Notes under the pieces: generated by a model
Database searches by the model: none
What the model saw: only the letters and a program-made list of their open reading frames with translations
Told to the model about the DNA's origin: nothing
Source of the DNA: a virus
IMG/VR virus record: IMGVR_UViG_3300021959_006010
Location: 124,001-188,000 of that record
Direction: 5' to 3' (one strand)
DNA length: 64,000 nt
Shown here: positions 13,944-58,411 of the stretch, piece after piece
Numbering within the stretch: the stretch's first letter is position 1
Layout of the letters: each line of letters starts with the position of its first letter
Translations under genes and position numbers: made by a program

Positions 13944-14217
13944 TTGCCGCTTGTAGTTGCGTTATTGCAGAATCTTGGCGAGCAAGCTTTCGTTCTAATA
14001 CATCGATAGCTGCTCGCTGTTTTTTTGACTGCTCTTCCAAACTTCTAACATACGCTAAAGACGGAACTTCTTGCTGCGAGCCATCTTCTCCAAGCATAAG
14101 AACTGTGTCAACACCTTGCGCTCGTAATCCGCCTGTTACACGATTAGGATTTTTATTAGATGATGATTGGGTCTGGTCCGGCGACTTTCTGCCGTACATC
14201 TTGTTCAAATAGCTCAT
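13930..14217 (-). CDS. Coiled-coil protein of unknown function, 95 aa
   Basis: The N-terminal half is polar and disordered-looking (MSYLNKMYGRKSPDQTQSSS), with a short VDTVLMLGEDGSQQEV strand pair. Residues 53-92 form a heptad-rich coiled coil (SLEEQSKKQRAAIDVLERKL). It starts inside the last 62 bases of uvsE, and a TATAAATA late box lies at 14235-14242, suggesting separate late expression and a possible virion role. Confidence 0.6.
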   Translation of the reverse strand: MSYLNKMYGRKSPDQTQSSSNKNPNRVTGGLRAQGVDTVLMLGEDGSQQEVPSLAYVRSLEEQSKKQRAAIDVLERKLARQDSAITQLQAAISRS

Positions 14218-15238
14218 TATTCTTCTCCATATAGTATTTATATAAGCTAATACTTGCTAGATTCTTGCATTTGCTTTCGACCATAATATCTGCATAAGGC
14301 AAAAATTCTAGTGCCCAATCGTTGACTGCATCATTCCACATGTAATCGCTGTGGGCTCGTAGTTTTGCTTTTTTGTATTCGCCTGCAAGTAGTATATCCA
14401 TATCAGGTTTAACATTTGTAGGATGTCCTACAAGCAAGTCTTCTCGAGATACTGAATAGTGTATTACAGGACGTACACCACGCCACGAGTCAATTATGCG
14501 AGTAAATCTATCGTCGGTTGGGAGAATGTATTCTCCTTCACGGCACCAGTGATGGTGTATGTCAAGAACGAGTGCGCAGTGGTCGACAAGCTCGAGGCTG
14601 TGTTCAAGTCCCCACTTGTTCTCGTCGTTCTCGATCGTGATGGTGTTTCGTGCTTCGGGCGAGAGTCTCTTGAGGGCGTCTTTGATGCCTTGTGGACCTC
14701 TTCGACCCGATATGTGTACGTTGCACTTGAAGTCTTGGAAGGTACGACCGTATCCCATCCAGCGCAAGACATCGGTGTGATATTCAAATTCTTCTATGCT
14801 CCTATCTACTATATCGTCGTTATCGCTTGCAAGGACAGTAAACTGACCAGGATGCATAGACAACCTAACATCAAGCGACCGGGCAAGATCACCGACCCTT
14901 GCGAAATTGCTTTCACAATATCGGACCACATCAGGACGTTTCCAGTAATAGCACCAAGTAGGCTCAGTGTATACAGGAAGGACATCACTGCCAAGTCGAA
15001 CCATTCGTAATTCATGTGGTAAACTCCCTACGTATTCAATCAGGTTGTAGTAGCTTTCGATATTATGTACCATAATATCCCACAACCGTTGTTCAGCAAC
15101 ATCACGAGATTGTCTATTCAACCATTGTACTGTTGTGCTACGAGTATTTAGTGGACGTTGGATTTCCTCTAACAGTTTCTTTTTTTGTGTCTGATCAGGA
15201 TGCATGTATTTGCATGCAAAGCCTATACGTTGTGTCAT
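14156..15238 (-). CDS. uvsE: UV-damage endonuclease UvsE/UvdE
   Basis: A 360-residue TIM-barrel repair enzyme that nicks DNA 5' to UV photoproducts. Family motifs seen in order: RIGFACKYMHPD at the start, LPHELRMVRLGSDVLP near 75, RLSMHPGQFTVLAS near 125, NVHISGRRG near 172, TIENDENKWGLEHSLELVD near 200, LDIHHHWCREG near 222 and VIHYSVSRED near 257. These include the conserved metal-binding His and Glu residues. Length is close to normal. Its ATG overlaps the stop of the ferredoxin reductase gene (ATGA), so queD-FNR-uvsE form one unit. Confidence 0.92.
   Translation of the reverse strand: MTQRIGFACKYMHPDQTQKKKLLEEIQRPLNTRSTTVQWLNRQSRDVAEQRLWDIMVHNIESYYNLIEYVGSLPHELRMVRLGSDVLPVYTEPTWCYYWKRPDVVRYCESNFARVGDLARSLDVRLSMHPGQFTVLASDNDDIVDRSIEEFEYHTDVLRWMGYGRTFQDFKCNVHISGRRGPQGIKDALKRLSPEARNTITIENDENKWGLEHSLELVDHCALVLDIHHHWCREGEYILPTDDRFTRIIDSWRGVRPVIHYSVSREDLLVGHPTNVKPDMDILLAGEYKKAKLRAHSDYMWNDAVNDWALEFLPYADIMVESKCKNLASISLYKYYMEKNNELFEQDVRQKVAGPDPIII
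14235..14242 (-). promoter_or_regulatory. Late-promoter box TATAAATA inside uvsE
   Basis: A perfect late octamer within the end of uvsE, 18 bases ahead of the start at 14217. It would let the coiled-coil gene be expressed late, independently of uvsE. Confidence 0.55.
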
Positions 15239-15942
15239 AATACAAATGCCTTTTCTTGTACAAAATTACCTGCTGTTCTACGATTACCTTCTACCCAACC
15301 TGAATTAGTGACAATATCTTTAAGATCGTTATTAAAGGGCATACTACCACATATCATGATTTTATCTGTATTAGGATCACCATTTGTTAATATTATACCA
15401 TCTTTAATAAGATCTGTCATCCTATTTCTTTGTTCTGGCCATTCCGGGTCTCTAGTAACAATAGGAATGTAATCTATATCCATTTCTTGCAAGAACTCAT
15501 TATATGATAGCAATTCTTTTGCTTGTCTTACACTCCATACTACATGTATTCTATTAAAAGAATCATATGTAGTTGGATCTCGTAACAGGCTTATAAAGGG
15601 CGCAATGCCTGTTCCTGTTGCAAGCATCCACAAATCGCCGCCAAGTTCTAAATTTGCTAGAGTTAATGTGCCAGTTGGTTTATCGCCTACTTCAAGTTCG
15701 TCGCCAACTTTTACATGTTGTAGTCTACTAGTAAGCGGACCGTCAGGAACCTTAATTGAATAAAATTCAAGAAAGTCGTCATATGGGCCACTTGTTATAG
15801 AATAAGCACGATTAATATCATCGTCTCCCATTCCAATCATTGTAAACTCACCAGCTGTAAACCTAAATGTATTAGGACGTTCTGTACGTATCCTAAACAA
15901 CGTATCTGTATAATGTTCTACTTCTGTTATTTTTAAAAACAC
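15235..15942 (-). CDS. Ferredoxin/flavodoxin-NADP+ reductase (Fpr class)
   Basis: Transfers electrons between NADPH and ferredoxin or flavodoxin. I chose a GTG start at 15942 because AGAGGTAATT lies just upstream and the queD stop is 11 bases away; a longer frame would run back into queD. RAYSIT (residues 45-50) is the FAD-binding RxYS motif, FYSIKVPDGPLTSRL the second flavin segment, ATGTGIAPF (about 108-116) the NADP site, and KIMICGSMPFNNDL the C-terminal nucleotide segment. Length 235 aa suits bacterial Fpr. In this genome it could reduce the ferredoxin needed by the bilin reductase at 54480; that link is inference. Confidence 0.9.
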   Translation of the reverse strand: MFLKITEVEHYTDTLFRIRTERPNTFRFTAGEFTMIGMGDDDINRAYSITSGPYDDFLEFYSIKVPDGPLTSRLQHVKVGDELEVGDKPTGTLTLANLELGGDLWMLATGTGIAPFISLLRDPTTYDSFNRIHVVWSVRQAKELLSYNEFLQEMDIDYIPIVTRDPEWPEQRNRMTDLIKDGIILTNGDPNTDKIMICGSMPFNNDLKDIVTNSGWVEGNRRTAGNFVQEKAFVL

Positions 15943-15952
15943 AATTACCTCT

Positions 15953-16402
15953 TTAAATCGAATAAATTGCAGAGTTGGCACCGTGTTCGGCACATTCAAC
16001 TTTTACAACATAGCATCGATTGTCTGTCATATCACGAATTAGTTTATCTGCAAAGTTGAATGCATGTTCTGCAAACTTCTCTGCACCAACACCGTCAAAC
16101 ACTCTACATTCTGCTAGTCCGAATTCTTCTAGTTCTTGTAGTTTTACACGCCAAGGATCTTTTTTGTCTAAGCATAGTTTATGGTCAAAGTTATCTTCGA
16201 GCCAAGCCTTTAGTGGCTTTAGTCCTCCAAAATCTACTGCCCAGTTTTTATTATCTAGCTCGTCACATCCAAATGTAAACGTAAATGCTAAACTGTAACC
16301 GTGTAGTAGATGACAGTGCGAATGATCAGCGTTAGGCTGACGAAACACTGCTGACAGACCAATATTATGTCCGTAATGTTTTGTAGAATAATGTTTACCC
16401 AT
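15953..16402 (-). CDS. queD: QueD / 6-pyruvoyl-tetrahydropterin synthase-like
   Basis: The start at 16402 is set by AGGAGGCAAGAG; the frame is open further upstream but crosses promoter sequence. The protein is 149 aa. Family motifs: HSHCHLLHGYS (27-37), NWAVDFGGLKPL, NFDHKLCLD, GVGAEKFAEHAFN and VECAEHGANSAIY. The enzyme makes 6-carboxy-tetrahydropterin in the 7-deazaguanine (queuosine or DNA-modification) pathway. The usual HGH zinc pair reads HGY here, with extra His at 27 and 29 that may substitute. No other que gene is in the window. A sigma70-type promoter and a late box both precede it. Confidence 0.87.
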   Translation of the reverse strand: MGKHYSTKHYGHNIGLSAVFRQPNADHSHCHLLHGYSLAFTFTFGCDELDNKNWAVDFGGLKPLKAWLEDNFDHKLCLDKKDPWRVKLQELEEFGLAECRVFDGVGAEKFAEHAFNFADKLIRDMTDNRCYVVKVECAEHGANSAIYSI

Positions 16403-36178: not shown

Positions 36179-36515
36179 TATACCACTCCTGTTTGTACTC
36201 GTCAATAATATCTACTGAGTTGATTCGCTCATAACGAAAGCTACGCCAACCCTTTGCATTAACATCCCAGACACCAACAACAGCATCTGATATTTCTCGA
36301 ACTTTCTTTTGACTCATTGTATCGTCTTTTGTAGCACGAGGTTTCATATCTTCGCGTAGTGTACAAGTCATTACTCGCTTGTCACCGTTGAGCTTAGTAA
36401 AATCAACCACTAGAACATTTTGCTCAAGCAGTGTCTTAAGTTCTTCCTTTACAGGAATACCCTTAAGACTTGCTACTGTTTCAGCGACTTGTGACGACTT
36501 TATCTGCGAGTCCAT
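36168..36515 (-). CDS. SH3-like beta-barrel protein (DUF2693/WYL_2 type), 115 aa
   Basis: The segment [20 protein letters not shown] with MTCTLRED, and [20 protein letters not shown], match a small Sm/SH3-like barrel family widespread in phages, often found near replication genes and of unproven function. The N-terminal 20 residues are an extra helix. The start overlaps the end of clpP by 35 bases. Confidence 0.72.
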
Positions 36516-37098
36516 TTTCTACTGCCTCTTCTGCTGTTAAAAATGTATCAAATTTCATAGTTTCGAAAAGTTCTTCGTAGGTCTTGCCTGCTGTGTTATG
36601 TTTTACATATAACTCAGTTAGACGTTTATTAACCTTCTGCGACTCTTCATAATGACGCTTTGCATCTTCAAACTGTAATTCCTGTACGTGTACACTGCCG
36701 CTAGTACCAGGAGTACCTGAGCTTACACGGTGTATCATTGTACGACTCTCTGGCAACACAATACGCTCGCCCGGTGCACCTGCTTGTGCTAAGAAACTAC
36801 CCATTGAACAGGCTTGACCCATTACAATAGTACGAACAGGTGATTTAATATATTGCATTGTGTCGTAGATAGCAAGTCCTGCTGTGACTGCGCCACCTGG
36901 ACTGTTAATATATAAATTAATAGCTTTATCAGGATTTTCGCTTTCGAGATATAACATCTGTGCAACAATAACATTTGCCATGTTGTCTTCTACTGGACCG
37001 TTAAGCATAATGATGCGATCCTTCATCAAGCGGCTGTAAATATCCCAAGAGCGTTCGCCGCGAGCTTCTTGTTCTACTACCATAGGAATAAGTGGCAT
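36481..37098 (-). CDS. clpP: ClpP-like serine protease subunit
   Basis: 205 residues, normal ClpP length. S98 in [11 protein letters not shown] and H123 in TMIHRVSSG are the nucleophile and base; the [11 protein letters not shown] oxyanion strand is intact. By eye the family Asp (in the E. coli IERDTERD segment) aligns with T180 of LFETMKFD, with D184 nearby. ClpP needs a ClpX or ClpA ATPase, which would come from the host; a phage ClpS is present at 55702. It could redirect host protein turnover or mature virion proteins. The start abuts the 75-residue gene by one base. Confidence 0.92.
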
Positions 37099-53207: not shown

Positions 53208-54452
53208 TTATCCAACGGTAGCTGATTTTTTGTATCCTGGTCCGGTTTCTACATACATTTTATAACGTAATAATTCGTACCCGCTAGGTGCTTCTTTTCC
53301 ATCTTTTACAGATTTCTTTTTCAACGCCTTTCTGTATGTGCTACCGCTAAAACGCCCGCCACTGCAAACAAATCTCATTTTAAAAATTAAATCGCTTCCG
53401 CCTTCTTCGTAGTCTGCCATAATTCTTAATTCGGATTTTTTTGTATCAGCTACTGCACTTATTGTTAGATTAGGAACGTTTTTTTCAAATTCTTGTACGG
53501 TTGTAGTATATGCTCCGTTTTTATCAAAAGTAAGAAGTTTAATATTGTCATCGTCTTTATTGATATGTTTCTTTAAGAATACAACTATATCGTTTAAAAA
53601 TGCTGCTTCTTCTCCATCTTTTTCAATTTGAGTGTTAATTTGTTCTGCTGCTTTAACTATGTTTTTATTAAATGCTTGAACGCCTTCGTTTTCACGTCTG
53701 ATAGCACGAAGTTCTTTTTCGTATTCTTTTTCAAGTTTACCGTCTTTTGCATTTTTGTTTACAAGATCTCTCAATTTAGCATCAAGCTCATTATATGCAT
53801 CTAAAGATGCATCGTCAATATCATCAACAATACCAATATCAGCAAAGAATTCAACTTGTCCGCCTGATCCTTTATCAACTCCTGGATGCTGACTAACCGG
53901 CATAACACCCTTACCTGAAGTATCTGTTTTTAAACTATAACCTAAACGTGTTACTTCTCTGTTACCTTCAGTATCAGTATGTACAATACTTACATCAACT
54001 TTAGTACCTTTTTGATCTGCGCCGCCTTCAGCACCTACTGCAATACTATCAGCTATACCATTTGCAAAAATATCCTTTAATTGAAGTCCGGCAGTTTTTA
54101 CTTGAGCATTTGCATCATTAATAATTCCAGGTAATTCAGCAGAAATATTTTCAATAGATGTTTCAATACGTCTTAGATCAGCTATGTGATCCTTCATATT
54201 AATAATATTTTTAAAAACAACTTTGTCAGTAATCTCACTCTTCATACCGTCTTCTCTAGTATCAAGATATGTCAACGACTGATCAAGCCCTTTAATAACT
54301 CTAATTACATCAGCTTTGTCTACTGGATTTGGGAATTTTGCAAAGGCAGCAGTAACGGCTGCTCCCCATACTGTTTCTGCAAGATCGCCTTTTGTATAAC
54401 CCTCTGTTAGTACAGTTGGTTGGTGGTATAATTTAAATTCTCTAAAACGCAT
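53208..54452 (-). CDS. Conserved phage protein, possible nuclease-like fold, 414 aa
   Basis: Starts MRFREFKLYHQPTVLTEGYT and GDLAETVWGAAVTAAF, a beginning familiar from marine T4-like phages. Near 150-180 GTKVDVSIVHTDTEGNREVT, RLGYSLKT has the D...xxK spacing of PD-(D/E)xK nucleases but with Ser in place of Glu. A coiled-coil region (about 220-290) and a beta-rich C-terminus follow. A CATAAATA late box precedes it. The nuclease idea is weak. Confidence 0.55.
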   Translation of the reverse strand: MRFREFKLYHQPTVLTEGYTKGDLAETVWGAAVTAAFAKFPNPVDKADVIRVIKGLDQSLTYLDTREDGMKSEITDKVVFKNIINMKDHIADLRRIETSIENISAELPGIINDANAQVKTAGLQLKDIFANGIADSIAVGAEGGADQKGTKVDVSIVHTDTEGNREVTRLGYSLKTDTSGKGVMPVSQHPGVDKGSGGQVEFFADIGIVDDIDDASLDAYNELDAKLRDLVNKNAKDGKLEKEYEKELRAIRRENEGVQAFNKNIVKAAEQINTQIEKDGEEAAFLNDIVVFLKKHINKDDDNIKLLTFDKNGAYTTTVQEFEKNVPNLTISAVADTKKSELRIMADYEEGGSDLIFKMRFVCSGGRFSGSTYRKALKKKSVKDGKEAPSGYELLRYKMYVETGPGYKKSATVG

Positions 54453-54476: not shown

Positions 54477-54484
54477 TATTTATG
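54477..54484 (-). promoter_or_regulatory. Late-promoter box CATAAATA
   Basis: NATAAATA octamer overlapping the bilin reductase stop and 25 bases upstream of the 414-residue gene, whose ribosome site is TTTAGGAAACTATCA. Confidence 0.42.
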
Positions 54485-55172
54485 TAATCTTAGGAAACAA
54501 CATGTCACGACAGAATACTTCTACATCTTCTTCAGGTAAACCTAAACTTTTCATAACTGCCGGGGTGTGCGGATTTTGTTGCTGATTATGACAATAATAA
54601 TCTTGGCATGCTGCTACGATATCAGGACTTCCTTCTCCCTTTGATTCTCCAACTTCGTCAAAGTATGCATGTAAGTTGTCTAGTGCAATTCTTATAATTT
54701 CTGTTGCTTCGTCTTCTGTCTTAACATTGCCAGCTGCTAACATTTTACCTGTAAATATATTTCTCGCCCATTCTGGTAGTTCACGCTGTTTCTCTGGAAT
54801 AAAGTGTTCAACACTATCGTAGTAACCTTGTATCATAGGATGATCAACCTCTGAACTAGGCGAAAAATCATGGAATGCTCCTGTTATTTTATTCTTACCA
54901 GCAATAACATCAAAGCCATAAATTGGAGCAGAATTATCTAAGGTAGGAAAAATACATACGTGCATCATCCAGAGGCCTTTTGTATCTCGAGCGTCAACAA
55001 CATCAATATGTGCCCGACGAATGCTATCGTTAGCCCAGACACGATTAATCCAACCATTGTCTGGCTGATTAAAAGCATCAAGTCCTTCTTCGTTGATTTC
55101 CGTTGCACGTTCATCAAACGTTTTAATAATTTCATCTTTACAATCGATTAGTTTATCCCAGATAAAACTCAT
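54480..55172 (-). CDS. Ferredoxin-dependent bilin reductase (PcyA/PcyX-like)
   Basis: 230 residues. WMMHVCIFPTLDNSAPIYGF, DVIAGKNKITGAFHDFSP contains H71 and D88, matching the PcyA pair His88/Asp105 that protonates biliverdin; the C-terminal DYYCHNQQQNP through EVFCRDMLFP is the family signature. The enzyme reduces biliverdin IXalpha with ferredoxin electrons. The His and Asp pattern and length favour the PcyA/PcyX branch over PebS, but I cannot settle the product (phycoerythrobilin or phycocyanobilin). Overlaps the heme oxygenase stop (ATGA), so both are co-translated. Confidence 0.88.
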   Translation of the reverse strand: MSFIWDKLIDCKDEIIKTFDERATEINEEGLDAFNQPDNGWINRVWANDSIRRAHIDVVDARDTKGLWMMHVCIFPTLDNSAPIYGFDVIAGKNKITGAFHDFSPSSEVDHPMIQGYYDSVEHFIPEKQRELPEWARNIFTGKMLAAGNVKTEDEATEIIRIALDNLHAYFDEVGESKGEGSPDIVAACQDYYCHNQQQNPHTPAVMKSLGLPEEDVEVFCRDMLFPKIT

Positions 55173-55705
55173 TCTTCTCCTAACTCCTCAAATAGTTGCA
55201 TAGCAAATTCAAAACAACGATTGGCTTCGTCTGCCATCTCATCGTGTAGCATTGCACGTACTGTTGTTTTTAAATTTTCTACGTCTTCAAACTCATACAT
55301 TTTACCTGAGCCTGGATTACGTTTAGCAATCATTTGACCGCCATACATATCACCAAAGTGACGTACATAAATGTGTGCAAGCAATTCGTCACTATTCAAA
55401 GTTACTACATGACTTGCATATTGATCCACTACAGGACACAATAAATCTGTGTTTCTTTGAATATCATATTCTGATTCTAATTCTTCGAGATCTTTTAATA
55501 TGTTGTCTACTCTACAAATATTTTCAATACCTTCTAGAACACTACGTTGTTTTGCAATCGATTCTAAAACTGCATATTGTACATATTGATTGTAAATGTA
55601 TCTGTGATATTCTTGCGGAGTCATGCCTTTTAACAATTTACGGGCATGTTCGGTACGTTCTGCTTTTTGATGGTTAGCCCATGTAAGCTCTTTAAGTTTG
55701 CTCAT
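55169..55705 (-). CDS. ho: Heme oxygenase
   Basis: 178 residues, all helical. H12 in WANHQKAERT is the proximal heme ligand, and HFGDMYGGQMIAKRN (116-130) is the distal helix with the flexible glycines. It opens heme to biliverdin, CO and iron. Length is shorter than cyanobacterial HO1 (about 240 aa). It overlaps ClpS upstream and the bilin reductase downstream by four bases each, so heme is led straight to a reduced bilin. Confidence 0.9.
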   Translation of the reverse strand: MSKLKELTWANHQKAERTEHARKLLKGMTPQEYHRYIYNQYVQYAVLESIAKQRSVLEGIENICRVDNILKDLEELESEYDIQRNTDLLCPVVDQYASHVVTLNSDELLAHIYVRHFGDMYGGQMIAKRNPGSGKMYEFEDVENLKTTVRAMLHDEMADEANRCFEFAMQLFEELGEE

Positions 55706-56007
55706 TCTGCCTCTACTGTAACTTGTAATGGAAAGCCGTTTGTTCTACTTAAATTAACTGTTTCGATTGCTTTTTGCTCTGCAATTTCAAAAAGATAAGT
55801 TCCAACAACTCCACTTCCTTCGTTGTGGATTGTCATTGTAATACTCTCTGCAGATTCGCGACTGTGTTTAAAGATTTCTGTTAGAACTTTGTAAACCCAT
55901 TCCATTGGTGTTTGGTCGTCGTTTAAGAAAATAACATTGTATTTTAAAGGTTCAGTTATTTGTTCTTCAATTTTTTCATCTAGTTTAATTTCAATATCTG
56001 TACTCAT
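55702..56007 (-). CDS. clpS: ClpS-like N-degron adaptor
   Basis: Start at 56007 after TAGGAGATAAT; 101 residues. YNVIFLNDDQTPMEWVYKVL, ITMTIHNEGSGVVGTYLFEI and NGFPLQVTVEAE are the ClpS core: the NDDxTPMEW pocket and the conserved H and G. ClpS brings proteins with destabilising N-termini to ClpAP. With the phage ClpP this could steer host proteolysis. It is the first gene of the ClpS-HO-bilin reductase set. Confidence 0.9.
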   Translation of the reverse strand: MSTDIEIKLDEKIEEQITEPLKYNVIFLNDDQTPMEWVYKVLTEIFKHSRESAESITMTIHNEGSGVVGTYLFEIAEQKAIETVNLSRTNGFPLQVTVEAE

Positions 56008-56055: not shown

Positions 56056-56541
56056 TTACTTGCCTACTTCTCCTTCGAACTCTCCTTCGATTGCTTCTTG
56101 TACATGACCGTTCCAGTCTGTAATAGCAATCTTTTTAGGCTGTAGTTCTTCAGGTATTTCACGCTTTAGATATATGTTAAGCATACCTAGTTCAAGGCCT
56201 GCGCTTTCTACTTCAACGTGATCAGCAAGTGTAAACTCTCTACGGAAGTTGCGTCCGCCGATTCCTTTGTGTAGGTAGTTTACTTCTTCGCCTCCCTTAG
56301 GAGCGTTACCTTCAATTGTTAGAATATTTTTATCCTTAGTAATTTCTAAGTTATCCATACCAAAGCCAGCAACTGCAAGTGAGATCATATACTCATCTTC
56401 GTTGATTTGCACAATATTGTATGGAGGATATCCTGTTGTCTTACTATTAGCAAATTCTCTTTCAAGTTGATTGAAAATTCTATCAAATCCAATAGTAGCT
56501 CTGTGGAATTGAGGTAGGTCTAGAGTTGTTAGTCTTGTCAT
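56056..56541 (-). CDS. Hsp20-family small heat-shock protein
   Basis: 161 residues. The alpha-crystallin domain spans about 38-135: YNIVQINEDEYMISLAVAGF, KNILTIEGN, YLHKGIGGRNFRREFTLADH and GMLNIYLKREIPEE with the I-x-I-like KKIAI tail. It is a holdase chaperone, common in marine T4-like phages where it is thought to help virion assembly. Downstream of GMP reductase with a long leader that carries a small hairpin and a GATAAATA box. Confidence 0.92.
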   Translation of the reverse strand: MTRLTTLDLPQFHRATIGFDRIFNQLEREFANSKTTGYPPYNIVQINEDEYMISLAVAGFGMDNLEITKDKNILTIEGNAPKGGEEVNYLHKGIGGRNFRREFTLADHVEVESAGLELGMLNIYLKREIPEELQPKKIAITDWNGHVQEAIEGEFEGEVGK

Positions 56542-56610: not shown

Positions 56611-57774
56611 TCAATTACCGATAGTTGACGATTCGTACACAGAATTGTGTGTCTGTGTACATCGAACAAATGTGGTACATTTGCTCAAATGCTTTAATCT
56701 GACTGCGCCAGCATAAGTGCAAGTAGAGCGCACCCCACCAAGTATATCTTGAATGCTACCTTCCACTGCTCCTCGGTAAGGAACAAGAACCGTTCTTCCT
56801 TCACTACTGCGATACTCCTTTAGTCCGCCAAAATGTTTTTCGTTCGCGGCCTTCGAACTCATTCCGTAGAATTGTACAAACTTTTTTTCTTTATAAATGC
56901 ATTCAACATCGTTTGGTTCTTCATTTGAAATCAAAACATACTCGTCTGTTTTATACAATTTGGTAATTACTTCGCCGCCACCTTCATCGTGTCCGGCTAA
57001 CATACCACCAAGCATTACAAAATCTGCACCAGCTGCGAAAGCCTTGGCAACATCTCCGGGGCAAGTACAGCCGCCGTCAGCAATAATATGTCCGCCAAGC
57101 CCATGAGCAGCATCAGCACACTCAATGACAGCGGAAAGTTGTGGGTATCCGACTCCAGTTTGAATCCTAGTAGTACAAACGCTACCAGGTCCAATACCAA
57201 CTTTAATAATATCAGCTCCAGCAAGAATAAGTTCCTCCGTCATTTCGCCTGTTACTACATTTCCGGCGATGATTACAATATGTGGATAGCGTTGTCTAAA
57301 CTCACGCACAAATGTTGCAAAGCGTTCTGAGTAGCCATTCGCAACATCAATACACACATATTTTAGATTACCGTCTGCTTGTTCGTATACATTGCGAAAC
57401 TTCATTTCGTCTCGATCAGTAATACCGATACTCATAGCAACATAGTTAGTGCGACTATAGTCATCAGTATCAAAGAAACTTACAAGTTCTTGTACACTAT
57501 AAGTTTTAACTAAACAAGTAAAGATACTTTGTTTAGCCAGTGTGTCGGCCATTTCAAACGTTCCAACACCGTCCATGTTAGAAGCCATAATAGGAACGCC
57601 TCGCCAGTGACGTGTGTCAGGACGTAACTGTTCCATACTCATATCTTCCGGAGTCCAGTTACGCCAAGTATAGCCTCTTTGTAAATCTACTTCTTTTCGA
57701 GATCCTAGAGTTGATCGTTTAGGACGAATTAGTACATCCTTATAATCAAGTTTCATGTCTTCTTCGAGACGCAT
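56611..57774 (-). CDS. guaC: GMP reductase
   Basis: 387 residues (E. coli GuaC has 347). The start [20 protein letters not shown] matches GuaC closely. [43 protein letters not shown] with C200 as catalytic Cys, and [14 protein letters not shown] are all present; there is no CBS domain, which excludes IMP dehydrogenase. It turns GMP into IMP with NADPH. Insertions near 40-55 and 285-300 explain the extra length. It could rebalance purine nucleotides for AT-rich phage DNA. Confidence 0.92.
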
Positions 57775-57783
57775 AATAACCTC

Positions 57784-58032
57784 TTAGTAACCTAATTCTC
57801 TTTTACGTTTTGCTAGTGCTTTTAGATGTCTGTTGCGAGCTTGTTTTTTCTTTCTGTTTTTTACAATACTCGGCTTTTCATAAAATTCTCGATTTCTTAG
57901 TTCTTGTAAAACACCATCTTCTTGAACTAATTTCTTGAAGCGTCTCATAGCTTTATTAAAATCGCCATTGCGTACTTCTACACGAAGTCCTTGAACTTCA
58001 ACTTCGTTTTTTCTATTTTGATTCCTGCGCAA
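57784..58032 (-). CDS. rpsU: Ribosomal protein S21
   Basis: Basic protein of about 82 aa with VQGLRVEVRNGDFNKAMRRF, KKLVQEDGVLQELRNREFYE and KPSIVKNRKKKQARNR, the S21 pattern. Start: TTG at 58032 has GGAGG five bases ahead; an ATG at 58044 has no ribosome site, so I prefer TTG. Overlaps the previous gene by 20 bases. S21 is needed for initiation in many bacteria and is known in phages of marine hosts; it may favour phage messages. Confidence 0.9.
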   Translation of the reverse strand: MRRNQNRKNEVEVQGLRVEVRNGDFNKAMRRFKKLVQEDGVLQELRNREFYEKPSIVKNRKKKQARNRHLKALAKRKRELGY

Positions 58033-58411
58033 AATTGCCTCCATCTTCTATCAAAAAATCGAGTGTATAAACTCTTTTAACACTTATATTAGTATATACT
58101 GGATTGGTATCATTTGTCAACCAATAAGTGTTTGTGTTTGCAACAATAAAACTTGCTAAATCTCTTACACGTCTTGGGCTATTGTCAATGTCAAAGATTA
58201 CTATATCTGCTATGTGTGCAACACTAAGCAACCAATCTATATTTTCTTCTTCTTCGGGATTATCGTATATGTAAATATTAAGAGGTGCATTCCAAGATTC
58301 TAGATGATTTTGAAACTCTTCTTTTATAGAATCTCTACAACCGATTAATAAAAAACTACGATTATTATTAAACAATTTATCCGGTGCGGTAATCAAGTTA
58401 ATTGTGTGCAT
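58013..58411 (-). CDS. Conserved marine-phage protein, 132 aa
   Basis: Rossmann-like alternation: RSFLLIGCRDSIKEEFQNHL, PLNIYIYDNPEEEENIDWLL, HIADIVIFDIDN. I recognise this type from T4-like marine phages, where it is hypothetical. Its last codons contain the ribosome site and start of rpsU. Confidence 0.65.
   Translation of the reverse strand: MHTINLITAPDKLFNNNRSFLLIGCRDSIKEEFQNHLESWNAPLNIYIYDNPEEEENIDWLLSVAHIADIVIFDIDNSPRRVRDLASFIVANTNTYWLTNDTNPVYTNISVKRVYTLDFLIEDGGNFAQESK
58091..58120 (-). promoter_or_regulatory. Possible sigma70-type promoter for rpsU
   Basis: TTGACA at 58115-58120 and TATACT at 58091-58096, 18-base spacer, inside the 132-residue gene. Confidence 0.45.

Follow-up and report, generated by a model that had tools for sequence, protein, structure and literature searches.

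A putative heme oxygenase–PcyX module behind clpS in a marine, PA5oct-like jumbo phage with a probably proteobacterial host

The window analysed here comprises 64,000 nucleotides, positions 124001–188000 of a 275,366-bp virus record (IMGVR_UViG_3300021959_006010) that is classed as linear and may be incomplete. The window contains genes for a ClpS adaptor, a heme oxygenase (HO) and a ferredoxin-dependent bilin reductase, all on the minus strand (Table 1). As the original prediction had proposed, the three genes are joined by ATGA overlaps. Specifically, coordinates and DNA agree on a 4-nt overlap between the clpS stop and the HO start, and on another between the HO stop and the reductase start. 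A Shine-Dalgarno-like AGGAG lies ahead of the clpS ATG, and the three proteins score above the cut-offs of their respective Pfam families. Because their genes overlap, HO and the reductase are probably co-translated. The gene order of the region is bS21–GMP reductase–HSP20–ClpS–HO–PcyX, and the gene for the 414-aa protein downstream of the reductase is also found in 16 related loci. Elsewhere in the window, the gene for a ferredoxin-NADP reductase-like protein adjoins a reading frame (14156–15238) whose product resembles UvsE-type UV-damage endonucleases, with a score slightly under the curated cut-off.

Table 1. Genes of the ClpS–HO–PcyX region and other relevant genes, in window coordinates
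Product	Position	Strand	Features
Ferredoxin-NADP reductase-like protein	15235..15999	-	PRK10926 2.8e-35, under equivalog cut-off; Pfam NAD_binding_1
ClpP peptidase	36481..37098	-	PRK00277 250.7 bits vs cut-off 249 (NCBIfam); PF00574
414-aa protein, function unassigned	53208..54452	-	directly downstream of reductase; PHROG matches weak
Bilin reductase, ferredoxin-dependent, PcyX type	54480..55172	-	230 aa; H71, D88, D57; PF05996 4.9e-17
Heme oxygenase (HO)	55169..55705	-	178 aa; PF01126 Heme_oxygenase 1.7e-16
ClpS adaptor	55702..56007	-	101 aa; PF02617 3e-26; first gene of overlapping set
HSP20 small heat-shock protein	56056..56541	-	PF00011 3e-14; directly upstream of clpS, as in most relatives
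GMP reductase	56611..57774	-	NCBIfam GMP reductase models above cut-off
Ribosomal protein bS21	57784..58044	-	PF01165 3.6e-18; neighbourhood matches rpsU of Pseudomonas phage MIJ3

By tree position, sequence identity and a PcyX-specific Asp, the reductase is classified as PcyX type, in agreement with the original prediction. Its best match among solved structures is PcyX_EBK42635 (5owg; E 5e-85, compared with 5e-13 for PcyA). It is 53% identical to EBK42635 over the full length and 53% identical to the reductase of pelagiphage Mosig, whereas identity to cyanophage PcyA is 21–25%. In two trees, drawn with PebA, PebB and HY2 left out and with long branches on some rows, the reductase falls within the PcyX clade with supports of 100/99 and 99/99, apart from cyanobacterial PcyA in both trees and from PebS in the first. 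Falsiroseomonas reductases branch beside the phage clade in the first tree, which agrees with the published AX clade of reductases (PMC10151467). AlphaFold run on the single reductase sequence gave a poor model (pLDDT 53), which was set aside; the solved relative 5owg was taken instead.

The catalytic residues are consistent with this assignment. H71 and D88, the His/Asp pair singled out in the original prediction, are invariant in 267 reductases. D57 aligns with Asp55 of EBK42635, a residue described as PcyX-specific; the PcyA activity found for phage CB_2 has been put down to its lack (PMC11480375). Phage sequences from three scans have Asp here in 80/80, 80/80 and 52/55 cases, and all 48 bacterial or cyanobacterial PcyA sequences of a genome scan have Glu. 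Three ClpS-linked phage reductases (L278, L298 and L334) have Asn, Thr or Glu at the equivalent position and may form a different bilin product.

HO has the features of HO-1-type enzymes, namely a proximal His, an Asp/Gly-rich distal helix and the heme oxygenase fold. H12, already noted as the heme ligand, is invariant in 36 phage HOs, and D119 of the distal GDMYGGQ is nearly invariant. An AlphaFold model built from an alignment of phage HOs has a pLDDT of 94, and its best PDB folds are heme oxygenases, with HmuO first (TMq ~0.8). In most relatives with a reductase ~75–84% identical to that of the window, HO is just ~40% identical; in L015 and L025–L027 it is 73–78% identical. We read this disparity between the two proteins as exchange of HO in place among relatives, a sign that HO activity may be under selection at that position. 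In some relatives (L048 and L072), a ~500-aa gene, flavin-dependent halogenase-like by eye, lies between HO and reductase.

The phage that carries the module is PA5oct-like. Its large terminase is closest to those of the Pseudomonas PA5oct-group phages (54% identity), followed by Sinorhizobium phage Phosso (50%) and Vibrio phage 2.275.O (45%), and it shares the bS21, HSP20 and ClpS neighbourhood with the first group. Like PA5oct and MIJ3 (Wroclawvirus), it encodes its own ClpA (genome positions 100512–102767; 876 bits, under the curated ClpA cut-off), which has a Clp_N domain and is the putative partner of ClpS. Unlike the window phage, PA5oct and MIJ3 have a superoxide dismutase behind ClpS and give no match to the reductase. 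Mosig-type pelagiphages are more distant, with a terminase 35% identical and a different gene context. No psbA/psbD-type gene (PF00124, Photo_RC) was found in 32 records, namely the genome of the window and 31 related ones. Together with the nearest terminase, this absence speaks against an ordinary cyanophage and supports the predicted non-cyanobacterial host, which is probably proteobacterial.

The original prediction had counted ClpS as a member of the bilin pathway, and here the evidence points elsewhere. The window ClpS belongs to the ClpS core family and has the residues (NDD, TPM, His) that we take, by comparison with E. coli ClpS, to line the N-degron pocket; N, D, T, P and H of this pocket are invariant in 59 phage ClpS sequences. 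A search for a Leu/Phe-transferase, which could feed substrates to ClpS, gave none. Pseudomonas phage MIJ3 has the order clpX–bS21–x–queD–HSP20–clpS–sodB, Vibrio phage 2.275.O has bS21–clpS–KTSC–x–SOD, and Phosso has HSP20–TK–clpS followed by genes without assignment. Because ClpS sits in a bS21/HSP20 neighbourhood in these cultured relatives, which lack HO and PcyX, it probably predates HO–PcyX in this phage family and is probably a member of an older stress block with no dedicated role in the pathway. The dismutases of MIJ3 and 2.275.O were confirmed by Pfam, and phmmer found no dismutase homologue in the genome of the window. The parallel between dismutase and HO–PcyX behind ClpS is suggestive only and may be coincidence, since unrelated genes occupy the same position in HO-less relatives.

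The arrangement is widespread among related viral contigs. In a scan seeded with the reductase, HO is present in 79 of 80 contigs, and ClpS and HO precede the reductase in 78; the clpS–HO overlap is exactly −4 in 38 of these 78 loci, which indicates that the trio is not a chance association. The two exceptions differ from each other. L047, a 133-kb PA5oct-like contig, encodes ClpA, ClpP and the reductase, with neither HO nor ClpS within the fetched flanks. L082 (3300008997_001583) encodes HO and lacks ClpS; its terminase and neck gene are Mosig-like and its reductase groups with a jumbo-type one (99/90), a combination that may stem from a second exchange between lineages of phages. A further scan, whose seed alignment had the ClpS of the cultured phage MIJ3 as its first sequence, returned 80 contigs, 55 with HO and reductase downstream and 74 with HSP20 upstream. 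These counts refer to contigs, not independent events, and contain some redundancy (59 distinct ClpS sequences). The 80 contigs recovered with Mosig PcyX are a separate phage lineage, in which ClpS is absent throughout and a neck gene is present in 72.

The second tree places the Mosig-type clade, to which the characterised PcyX belongs, within the ClpS-linked phage diversity. The fork, which comprises 30 rows, has a support of 100/97 with other ClpS-linked rows outside, in a tree whose bootstrap is not fully settled. This topology suggests that pelagiphages obtained PcyX from the ClpS-linked jumbo-phage pool. No PcyX was found in a search of plasmids. Four contigs from bacterial MAGs (L210–L213) with reductases ~70% identical were considered as bacterial PcyX and rejected, since their gene order is identical to that of the phages; we take them for phage sequences that ended up in bacterial bins. 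One of them, L212 (PBPT01000016.1, 335 kb, labelled Neomarinimicrobiota), is probably a jumbo phage genome.

The enzyme pair itself is known. EBK42635, a phage phycoerythrobilin synthase, shares its clade and three catalytic residues with the window reductase, but it groups with Mosig-type phages, whereas the window reductase is from a jumbo phage and has ClpS upstream. Pelagibacter phage Mosig EXVC030M has the same HO–PcyX pair, with PcyX beside neck genes, no adjacent ClpS and a 2Fe-2S ferredoxin of its own. Cyanophage PebS and PcyA, which come from phages of cyanobacteria, belong to the same reductase family but fall outside the PcyX clade. HO–PcyX(–AlaS) cassettes have been reported in non-cyanobacterial marine phages, with their purpose left unexplained (Wegner et al. 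2024, PMC11480375). The enzymes are the same as here, and AlaS (genome positions 214234–215442, above cut-off) likewise lies apart from the pair, as in the published 'broken cassette'. That study proposes a pelagiphage origin and does not mention ClpS, and the occurrence of ClpA, ClpS and ClpP in jumbo phages has also been published (PMC6102473, PMC7824862). In a literature search mostly confined to papers outside subscription, no paper linking ClpS or jumbo phages with HO–PcyX was found. Thus, part of the novelty seen in the original prediction had been anticipated, and what is new is the jumbo-phage lineage, the conserved HSP20–ClpS–HO–PcyX order and its likely age.

Taken together, the sequence data argue for a PcyX-type module that would turn heme into phycoerythrobilin (PEB), a pink bilin pigment, and that is carried by a PA5oct-like jumbo phage whose host is not a cyanobacterium and is probably a proteobacterium, a reading to which we assign a probability of about 0.7. 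HO would cleave heme into biliverdin with release of iron and CO, and PcyX would convert biliverdin via 15,16-DHBV to PEB by a four-electron reduction. Because no 2Fe-2S ferredoxin gene was found in the genome of the window, the electrons would presumably be supplied by ferredoxin of the host, which the ferredoxin-NADP reductase-like protein of the phage may recharge. The pair lies behind ClpS, in the region where two cultured relatives have superoxide dismutase downstream. As to its purpose, we tentatively lean, at somewhat less than even odds, towards a module that serves heme turnover and the redox protection of infected cells, together with HSP20, ClpS and the phage ClpA/ClpP. A role in light is without support here, since photosystem and phytochrome genes are absent, and light harvesting in particular is unlikely because Pseudomonas, Sinorhizobium and Vibrio, the hosts of the closest cultured phages, do not use phycobilisomes.

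The main rival is iron release. Under this somewhat unlikely explanation, HO would free iron from existing host heme for iron enzymes of the phage, and PcyX would merely clear biliverdin. In Mosig and many of the relatives, homologues of 2OG-Fe(II) oxygenases lie close to the cassette, which fits such a demand, and iron supply has been proposed before (PMC11480375). However, the same genome encodes AlaS, and AlaS with HO would yield bilin and CO with a net iron gain of zero; heme that is made and then broken returns just its own iron, which makes pure iron salvage less attractive. HO by itself would also be enough to obtain iron. Use of the bilin as chromophore for a host phytochrome or a bilin-binding globin is improbable: no PHY domain was found in the genome of the window or in 22 related records, and PEB is not the usual chromophore of phytochromes. 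The precedent for it is phage CB_2, whose HO and PcyA, if expressed together with Cph1, can provide a phytochrome with its chromophore (PMC11480375).

A dedicated function of ClpS, in which it would act with phage ClpA/ClpP to remove a host regulator or else the host's ALA synthase or glutamyl-tRNA reductase, leaving tetrapyrrole flux to the phage AlaS–HO–PcyX route, would account for the frequent conservation of the ClpS–HO adjacency and −4 overlap and for the presence of both AlaS and ClpA in the phage. Moreover, both in Salmonella and in chloroplasts Clp acts on glutamyl-tRNA reductase, and chloroplast ClpS1 binds this enzyme (PMC7966870). Nevertheless, we consider it doubtful and have downgraded ClpS as a pathway-specific partner: MIJ3, 2.275.O and Phosso have ClpS without HO or PcyX, which speaks against this being its original role, HO is absent from several ClpS loci, and Mosig-type phages have HO–PcyX without ClpS. 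Slightly less probable still is a complete phage tetrapyrrole circuit, in which AlaS would provide precursor, HO–PcyX would drain heme to PEB and ClpS–ClpA/ClpP would degrade host heme-synthesis enzymes or regulators. Finally, the reductase could be a PcyA making phycocyanobilin, or the phage an ordinary cyanophage. PcyA is indeed the best NCBIfam model, reflecting distant homology, but the score is far under its cut-off, and D57, both trees, the missing psbA/psbD and the terminase leave this explanation very improbable.

To judge from the distribution of the reductase, a widespread jumbo-phage lineage, and not the pelagiphages, appears to be the centre of PcyX diversity. Cultivable relatives are thus offered for testing the purpose of phage heme breakdown, and the superoxide dismutase in the same region of two of them gives a concrete redox-protection hypothesis for a question open in the literature.

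Two further observations concern the genome at large. Between ~19000 and 55000 of the genome (G000, loci L083–L085), outside the window, there is a row of many proteins that are radical-SAM-like by eye. The bS21 proteins of related contigs, those of the window and of L038-type loci included, fall into clearly distinct types, which could serve for host assignment; by eye, the L038-type protein resembles SAR11 bS21.
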